From: Mucilaginibacter xinganensis
GTDB lineage: Bacteria > Bacteroidota > Bacteroidia > Sphingobacteriales > Sphingobacteriaceae
DNA length: 64,000 nt
Reading direction: 5' to 3'
Assembly: GCA_026225055.1 (NCBI GenBank)
Contig: JAMFSA010000091.1
Location: 1 to 64,000 of the forward strand
Of this stretch, positions 1 to 1,030 are shown in pieces (position 1 is the first letter of the stretch; each line of letters begins with the position of its first letter). Below the pieces are notes generated by a model. It ran no database searches and was not told where the DNA came from. It was given only the letters and a program-made list of their open reading frames with translations. The translations under genes and the position numbers were made by a program.

Positions 1-32
1 ACTATGTGGAGGTTCGAATCCTTCCCCAACAG
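1..32 (+). tRNA. 3' end of an atypical tRNA, cut by the window edge
   Basis: Only the T arm and the 3' acceptor strand are present. The T stem GGAGG (8-12) pairs with CCTTC (20-24) around the loop TTCGAAT. The acceptor strand CCCAACA (25-31) and a G discriminator (32) follow, with no encoded CCA. The T arm is almost identical to that of the complete tRNA-like gene at 62-176, so the two look like tandem paralogues. The 5' part and the anticodon lie outside the window. Confidence 0.6.
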
Positions 33-33
33 C

Positions 34-53
34 AATCTCAAAGGCTTGAGATT
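34..53. repeat. 8-bp perfect hairpin between the two tRNA-like genes
   Basis: AATCTCAA (34-41) and TTGAGATT (46-53) are perfect complements around the four-base loop AGGC. The hairpin lies in the short spacer between the two tRNA-like units. It could be a processing signal or a weak terminator; no T tract follows it. Confidence 0.5.
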
Positions 54-61
54 AACAAAAA

Positions 62-176
62 TGTAGGATGGTGAAATTTTGGCAGACACACCTCCTTGTC
101 GCGGTGGCGGAGAAATTGGGAAACTTTTAGCAATAAAAATAACCACTCCGTGGAGGTTCGACTCCTTCTCCTACAG
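62..176 (+). tRNA. Atypical class II tRNA-like gene, anticodon GTC, oversized variable region
   Basis: A complete cloverleaf can be drawn. The acceptor stem TGTAGGA (62-68) pairs with TCCTACA (169-175) in seven perfect pairs. A Leu-type D arm has stem GTG (71-73)/CAC (87-89). The anticodon stem CCTCC (91-95)/GGTGG (103-107) has a central T-T mismatch; its loop TTGTCGC gives anticodon GTC at 98-100. The variable region is 44 nt, closed by CGGAG (108-112)/CTCCG (146-150). The T arm is GGAGG/CCTTC with loop TTCGACT. The discriminator is G and no CCA is encoded. The body looks like tRNA-Leu, but G73 and anticodon GTC do not fit leucine, and Asp tRNAs are class I. It may be a functional non-canonical tRNA or a decayed one; the intact stems favour the first. 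Confidence 0.5.
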
Positions 177-207
177 CTCTTCTCATAATTTAGGTTTATA
201 ATTGGTT

Positions 208-240
208 AGTAAAGGCCCCTGCCCAACAGGGGCTTTACTT
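208..240 (+). terminator. Intrinsic terminator after the tRNA-like pair
   Basis: A G/C-rich hairpin (GTAAAGGCCCCTG with CAGGGGCTTTAC, loop CCCAA, one bulged base) is followed by a short T-rich stretch. It fits as the end of the tRNA-like transcription unit. Confidence 0.7.
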
Positions 241-383
241 GTTTATAGGCTTTCCTCAAAACTTTAATATTCATAATTTAACATTCGGTGTTCGATATTA
301 TTCGGTTTTTTAATATCGAATAATGAATTTCGAATGTCCAATATCAAAAATGAACTTCAATCAACTTATTACTAACGGTTAAC

Positions 384-814: not shown

Positions 815-1030
815 ATGGCAGAGATCAGCATATCAAATAAAGATTGGCAGCGGGTAAAAATCAAGATCCAGAGAAAATATAACCACTTAAGTGATGCGCA
901 GTTGCAATATACCGAGGGCCAGGAAGAAAGCCTGATCGGCAATTTAATGAAGCTGGTGAACCGCGACAGGAAATATGTAGTATTTACCCTGCAAAAAGCA
1001 CTGGTAAATATTGATAATAACAGGTTATAA
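815..1030 (+). CDS. Small CsbD-like stress protein
   Basis: A 71-residue, charged, soluble protein with no signal peptide or membrane segment. The order of a W-x2-VK-x-KI-x5-Y motif, an L-x-DAQL segment and a YTEGQE turn resembles the CsbD family of small general-stress proteins (normally 55-70 residues), whose biochemical role is unknown. The second half (about residues 40-65, rich in K, R, V and F) extends beyond a minimal CsbD domain. The gene stands alone, about 200 nt before the protease gene. The family assignment is from the pattern only. Confidence 0.65.
   Translation: MAEISISNKDWQRVKIKIQRKYNHLSDAQLQYTEGQEESLIGNLMKLVNRDRKYVVFTLQKALVNIDNNRL

Follow-up and report, generated by a model that had tools for sequence, protein, structure and literature searches.

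The window analysed here, a 64,000-nt stretch at the start of contig C217 of the 6.64-Mb Mucilaginibacter xinganensis genome (C-numbers are the contig labels of this assembly), opens with two tandem tRNA-like genes, which we call copies A and B (Table 1). An earlier note on this DNA had placed at 62–176 a tRNA-like gene with G73, the anticodon GTC and a 44-nt variable region (108–151), together with a tandem sibling ending at position 32. The coordinates, stems and listed features proved correct, and the sibling is copy A: window positions 1–127 match the end of contig C40 base for base (contig-end comparison), which lets the array be followed over the contig break, and the remainder of copy A lies on C40. 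The two copies are built alike, with 7-bp acceptor, 3-bp D, 5-bp anticodon and 5-bp T stems, a long variable arm, G73 and no encoded CCA. In copy B the variable arm is folded into helices 108–112/146–150, a bulge, 117–119/143–145, an internal loop and a hairpin at 125–129/134–138. Each copy has one T–T mismatch in the anticodon stem; that of copy B, already pointed out in the note, is T93–T105 (U29·U41), and it recurs in every copy read from the window's taxonomic family (22/22 rows of set A1 and 29/29 rows of set A2), while the position is paired in copies from other families. Copy A has C37, and copy B combines U33 with G37.

Table 1. Features of the tRNA-like array and its neighbourhood (window coordinates unless another locus is named)
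Feature	Position	Strand	Basis
Copy A, 3′ part: end of variable arm, T arm, acceptor 3′ strand, G73	1–32	+	contig-end identity, sequence
Copy A, whole, 112 nt	L008:96–207 (contig C40)	−	contig-end identity, sequence
Copy B, full-length tRNA-like RNA, 115 nt	62–176	+	RF00005 32.3 bits; models R1, R3
Copy B, acceptor stem 5′ strand (partner 169–175)	62–68	+	conservation in distinct copies
Copy B, D arm: 3-bp stem 71–73/87–89, Leu-like loop with GGCAG	71–89	+	D-stem covariation in relatives
Copy B, anticodon arm: loop TTGTCGC 96–102 (U33, G37), GTC 98–100	91–107	+	sequence; stem covaries between families
Copy B, variable arm, 44 nt, structured	108–151	+	covariation
Copy B, T arm with TTCGACT loop	152–168	+	Rfam match, relatives
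Copy B, acceptor 3′ strand and discriminator G176 (= G73); CCA not encoded	169–176	+	sequence
Conserved trailer element, AGGTTTATAATTGGTTAG at 192–209	178–210	+	recurs elsewhere in genome, relatives
Intrinsic-terminator-like hairpin, T-rich tail	211–240	+	by eye; similar place in relatives
AsnC-type regulator, 158 residues	L008:359–835	divergent to copy A	profile and PDB matches

When positions 1–260 were scanned alone, the Rfam tRNA model RF00005 matched copy B (32.3 bits, E 3.1e-5, gathering score 29), and the only other Rfam matches in that stretch at E ≤10 were two sub-threshold ones at chance level; when the whole window was scanned at gathering scores, RF00005 did not call copy B. It found no match to copy A up to E 10 in L008:1–360, where no Rfam family matched at that limit, and at gathering score it called no family members in 7 + 6 further sources scanned. 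ARAGORN reported neither copy. Copy B scored 136.7 bits with our R1 covariance model, of which it is a part, and 112.2 bits with R3, from which it was left out. The folding energy of single copies was not clearly better than that of shuffles (z −1.34 to 0.31; 4 copies folded), so it is covariation, not energy, that supports the fold.

Putative transcription signals and the trailer element

Reading by eye shows a promoter-like TTTG ... TAnnTTTG stretch at the majority of copies or tandems in the window's family; terminator-like hairpins lie 3′ of most of the listed copies. A boxA-like G[TC]TCTTT was found no more than 70 nt upstream of 22/51 copies of the window-family type (those with no other copy shortly before them), of 14/114 other copies and of 0/47 ordinary tRNAs of the window's genome. 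At L104:2984–4601, five consecutive copies each come with a promoter-like stretch, a boxA-like leader, a trailer and a terminator; the copy at L141:1489–1613 (−) has its 5′ half intact, lacks the T arm and the 3′ strand of the acceptor, and ends in a terminator.

The AGGTTTATAATTGGTTAG trailer stands 3′ of many copies in the window's family and also recurs as free-standing small units (≤2 mismatches), with 9 in the window's genome and 16 in genome G160 versus 0 for a reversed control; in G312 there were 4 matches versus 3 for the control. This multicopy, small-RNA-like element (window 178–240; G000:C80:12061, C142:67475, C217:72610, C13:6548 and others) is mostly followed by a terminator and often has a promoter-like stretch just upstream, a layout that recalls FopS. 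FopS is a small RNA family of Bacteroides present in many copies, each a single-stranded stretch plus terminator (PMC11697453), which is also the layout of the window trailer; no Rfam match to FopS was obtained in window 1–260 at E ≤10, a negative that presupposes a FopS entry in the Rfam release used. The same AGGTTTATAATTGGTTAG trailer also follows an odd tRNA at G000:C142:67372–67442 (in L375), whose anticodon loop reads ATTTAAA (TTA, ochre-type; by eye).

A widespread family with a regulator next door

With copy A as query, a match was found in 142/149 genomes of the genus, 127 of which showed at least two, and in 117/117 of the genomes with ≥90% completeness and ≤5% contamination; the 7 genomes with no match are 70–86% complete and lie in 210–850 contigs. 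At higher ranks we used stricter filters, under which weak members may be missed, and R1 matched 182/251 genomes of the window's taxonomic family, 17 of them with weak scores alone, which leaves a strong match in 165/251; the 9 weak-scoring genomes that were read held 8 ordinary tRNA-Leu (GAG; also TAA in two) and 1 truncated member. With R1, full-length members read scored 86–142 bits, and ordinary tRNA-Leu mostly 45–57 bits (40.5 in one genome). Across the phylum, under the same caveat, R3 reached at least 100 bits in 41/392 genomes, followed by one at 71.1 and the rest of those listed at ≤59.8; the 41 fall in seven families (working labels f1, f2, f5, f8, f9, f10 and f48). Scanning named genomes by pattern returned at least 119 stretches, and the 80 examined all matched the model; their titles name organisms that we take to be Bacteroidota in the wide sense (Chitinophaga, Dyadobacter, Spirosoma, Cyclobacterium, Algoriphagus, Saprospiraceae, one Ignavibacteria MAG and others).

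Relatives also occur in viruses. A pattern scan of IMG/VR gave 103 stretches, of which 80 were examined, with 79 full-length matches at 57–92 bits and 1 that is cut. In the parts of these 80 loci that were examined, 50 carry at least one ordinary tRNA, 24 carry at least five (including tRNA-Asp in 11/24) and 8 carry tmRNA, and some relatives sit inside large tRNA arrays; the frames of one locus (L422), read by eye, include DNA-polymerase-like and helicase-like genes of phage type. The window copy itself had no match in the plasmid collection or among INPHARED phages, so the mobile-element origin that the earlier note had considered is not seen for this copy, although IMG/VR phages do carry relatives. 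Three IMG/VR loci (L400:5130–8052, with 5 copies, L408:4907–5049 and L458:716–818) hold tRNA-Leu-like shells of 103–148 nt in which the acceptor, D and T arms are near-constant and seemingly unrelated sequence replaces the anticodon and variable arms; these are perhaps tRNA-scaffolded variable RNAs. In the window's own genome, one 27-kb contig (G000:C102) accounts for 18/68 tRNA model rows, which suggests a phage-type tRNA array. We did not find a description of the tRNA-like family in the open literature, subscription papers and preprints being outside the scope of that search, and the window gene belongs to a large and old family of tRNA-like RNAs in Bacteroidota and their viruses that has apparently not been described before.

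The regulator that diverges from copy A is closest, by far, to NCBIfam NF008384 (2.9e-52; 176.6 bits, below the 227-bit cut-off) and matches E. coli AsnC (PDB 2cg4, 4.8e-37), with a YTTG..SIF stretch in common. The note had advised looking for a partner synthetase: frames read by eye as aspS and serS (putative identities) do lie 12–17 kb away on C40, the candidate aspS at ~15 kb, and the conserved partner is instead the AsnC-type regulator. A divergent AsnC homologue lies directly upstream in 47/70 pattern-scan clusters and 44/59 other clusters, in two partly overlapping sets (some loci are one genome under two names) that are limited to clusters for which 900 or more upstream bases were available (11 and 1 others fell short and were left out); the gap between regulator and RNA is 127–248 bases in the pattern-scan set. 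No non-divergent AsnC homologue was found within 1500 bases in the 70 + 59 clusters, and the 23/70 and 15/59 clusters at which no AsnC homologue was found come mainly from Saprospiraceae and part of the Cyclobacteriaceae or are additional copies within the window's family. Among 11 further loci, the homologue stands beside the RNA in 7 and was not found in 4. When 26 neighbouring regulators were aligned, at least 90% shared the residues of the YTTG and GI.RTET.ISLEE stretches. E. coli AsnC is divergent from its target asnA; here, likewise, an AsnC-type regulator is divergent from its likely target, the neighbour in this case being an RNA gene.

The association is not strict in the other direction, and this counts against the reading that we favour below: 7 genomes of the window's family with no full-length model match retain the regulator at 71–77% identity. 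Among the regulator loci that have no intact RNA, L326, L328, L329 and L332 retain the promoter-like stretch, the trailer element and the terminator, and at L331 only remains of the acceptor and T arm lie beside the regulator; at L327 and L330, none of the promoter-like stretch, trailer, terminator or an RNA remnant was seen beside it. As a separate observation, a small protein gene at window 815–1027 has a homologue in the flanks of 19/60 loci (L040–L099; tblastn; flank lengths differ).

Covariation and the positions that are kept

Among 22 copies from the genus, 8 pairs are altered on both sides (41 cells vs. 13.1 in shuffles), and among 100 pattern-scan matches, aligned by fitting to the model and hence biased towards its pairing, 21/33 pairs are altered on both sides (363 cells vs. 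75.7 shuffled and ≤46 slid). Compensatory changes occur in every helix; the anticodon stem swaps by compensation between CCCTC/GGGGG, CCCGC/GCGGG, CCGCC/GGCGG and CTAGC/GCTAG.

In 183 distinct cellular copies, G73, U35, C36 and C38 are invariant (183/183), as are the acceptor pairs G2:C71 and U3:A70, with U1:A72 in 182/183 (TGT/ACA ends). G34 is present in 178/183 (replaced by C in 2, A in 2 and T in 1). Position 33 is T in 166, C in 8, A in 7 and G in 2, and position 37 is T in 152, C in 18, G in 13 and A in 0, that is, a pyrimidine in 170/183. Note that in the rows of set A5 the search pattern restricts positions 32–33 and fixes 34–38 of the hit that brought in each locus; with these rows left out (84 distinct copies), position 37 is T in 55, C in 16 and G in 13, and position 33 is T in 72, C in 8, A in 3 and G in 1. 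A control set of 84 distinct ARAGORN-called tRNAs from the loci examined has a purine at 37 in 84/84 and U33 in 82/84. G10 is not kept across the family, position 10 being A, T or G. The variable region spans 38–131 nt in 169 copies (4/187 rows were left out as truncated before this count and that of G73, 169/169), and in the long type it holds a GACCAC motif (73/169 copies). A 76-nt member with no long arm (L495:2039–2114, −; loop CTATCTC) keeps the ends, the D loop and UCUC, which hints at the parts that may be indispensable; no AsnC homologue was found in the 4.2 kb examined at that locus.

The family shares the D arm, core and variable-arm site of class II tRNA-Leu(GAG), which is also mostly the highest-scoring ordinary tRNA with R1 in the genomes read, in keeping with the Leu-type D arm and class II body recognized in the note. 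The discriminator of tRNA-Leu is A73; in contrast, the family has G73 in 183/183, U1:A72, a changed anticodon loop and the 38–131-nt variable region. With tRNA-Asp(GTC), as read from the genome's own gene, it has G34, U35, C36, C38, G73 and G2:C71 in common, and it differs in its class II body, in the mostly pyrimidine 37 and the variable position 10, and in coexisting with ordinary tRNA-Asp, of which the window's genome also encodes one (GTC, with A37, C38 and G73).

We take U35, C36, C38, G73 and G2:C71, together with the near-fixed G34, to be the identity set of AspRS, which copies A and B and 178/183 copies carry in full, the other 5 having no G34. Because the invariant positions and the near-fixed G34 coincide with this set, AspRS would be the likeliest charging enzyme; SerRS, too, would suit an RNA with a long variable arm and G73. 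Substitution of G34 in 5/183, by which the Asp anticodon is not strictly kept, and the lack of a constant G10 speak against a pattern fixed for the synthetase, and U33 in 166/183 means that decoding is still compatible with the data. The U33 and G37 of copy B would fit a decoding tRNA, which we count against our main reading; for the family as a whole, codon reading in the ordinary manner looks unlikely.

Two candidate functions were rejected. Compensation for a missing AsnRS is ruled out, as AsnRS is over the cut-off in 37/37 genomes with the RNA and in 24/25 others (one of the others, G419, has a short form); its presence with or without the tRNA-like RNA leaves no sign of an indirect Asn-tRNA route. 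The second was mimicry of the anti-Shine-Dalgarno sequence by CACCTCCTT (window 89–97), which resembles what we take to be the 3′ end of 16S rRNA. As a general function this fails, the sequence being confined, among copies read, to the window's family and other stems reading CCCTC, CCCCC or similar; the 26 genomic sites that match it exactly (13 forward and 13 reverse; 16 and 13 for the control) suggest no target set, and the 16S end is not among the matches in this assembly.

What the RNA may do

Judged from sequence comparison, this is a real and widespread tRNA-derived family with a 7/5 cloverleaf and a big structured variable arm, often divergent from an AsnC-type gene, and it is neither an allo-tRNA nor a product of decay. 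The earlier note had raised both possibilities. Allo-tRNAs have a 12-bp acceptor branch split 8/4 or 9/3 (Mukai et al., 2017, via PMC7609411), long variable arms and non-standard anticodons among which GUC is common, and are reported from Clostridia, Proteobacteria and Acidobacteria (PMC7609411). The family resembles them in its long variable arm and G73 (SerRS type), the 76-nt member having no such arm; in contrast, its acceptor and T stems are 7 and 5 bp and its hosts are Bacteroidota, and the proposed membership was therefore dropped. Decay, as a decaying or mobile tRNA fragment, can point to one truncated copy (L141) and one remnant (L331); set against the match in 117/117 good-quality genus genomes, the compensatory changes in every helix and the promoter-like and terminator-like sequences, it is exceedingly improbable, and we regard it as already refuted by the conservation. 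What stands of the note's overall view is that this is a non-canonical tRNA-like gene, probably unusual in its cargo or role.

We tentatively favour a specialised, charged tRNA-derived RNA under AsnC control, with AspRS as the best candidate for charging and a special task other than the ordinary reading of GAY codons. The transcript would be trimmed as a tRNA precursor and CCA then added; AsnC, sensing asparagine or a related amino acid, would control transcription of the RNA; a synthetase, most likely AspRS, would charge it; and the charged RNA would help to sense or supply amino acids or play some non-standard part at the ribosome. The non-decoding part of this reading is inferred mainly from positions that are fixed for a synthetase and free for the ribosome.

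Were the RNA instead an uncharged regulator, its tRNA fold would serve stability or processing while it bound a protein (AspRS, AsnC or EF-Tu) or base-paired with a target. The big structured variable arm with, in its long type, the GACCAC motif, the linkage to a regulator gene and the conserved trailer in the window's family would all suit such an RNA; we nevertheless think it rather unlikely, as the acceptor end (U1:A72, G2:C71, U3:A70 and G73) is among the most conserved parts, which a structural role alone does not need, and the 76-nt member does with no long arm at all. An unusual decoding tRNA, reading GAY codons or a shifted frame under special conditions and perhaps charged with Ser or Asp, is in our estimate unlikely. 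An elbow of elongator type (D loop with GG, T loop with TTCGA), the GTC anticodon and U33 in most copies, with G37 in that of the window, and the placing of a family member among translation tRNAs and tmRNA by some phages argue for it; position 37, never A and mostly a pyrimidine where ordinary tRNAs have a purine, the replacement of U33 in 17/183 copies, and the ordinary tRNA-Asp already present in the host and in 11/24 array-bearing phage loci argue against it. Finally, a decoy or spare tRNA-like RNA that spreads between phages and hosts as a counter to tRNA-cutting defence or toxins would account for the viral relatives and the large tRNA sets of some phages, but its near-universal presence in the genus, the AsnC synteny in hosts and the unmatched window copy on plasmids and INPHARED phages make it highly improbable.

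A broader reading is doubtful: a non-decoding, aminoacylated tRNA-derived RNA under the control of an asparagine-type regulator may form an amino-acid signalling or supply module conserved across much of Bacteroidota, of which phages that come with translation RNAs would bring a copy too. This stable-RNA gene is present in many genomes and phages; ARAGORN missed its window copy, and the Rfam searches turned up no family of its own. With synthetase-type positions fixed, decoding positions free and a regulator adjoining, the family offers a direct way to ask whether bacteria keep tRNAs for non-decoding work; if so, it would be a phylum-level case of an RNA that links amino-acid sensing with translation.
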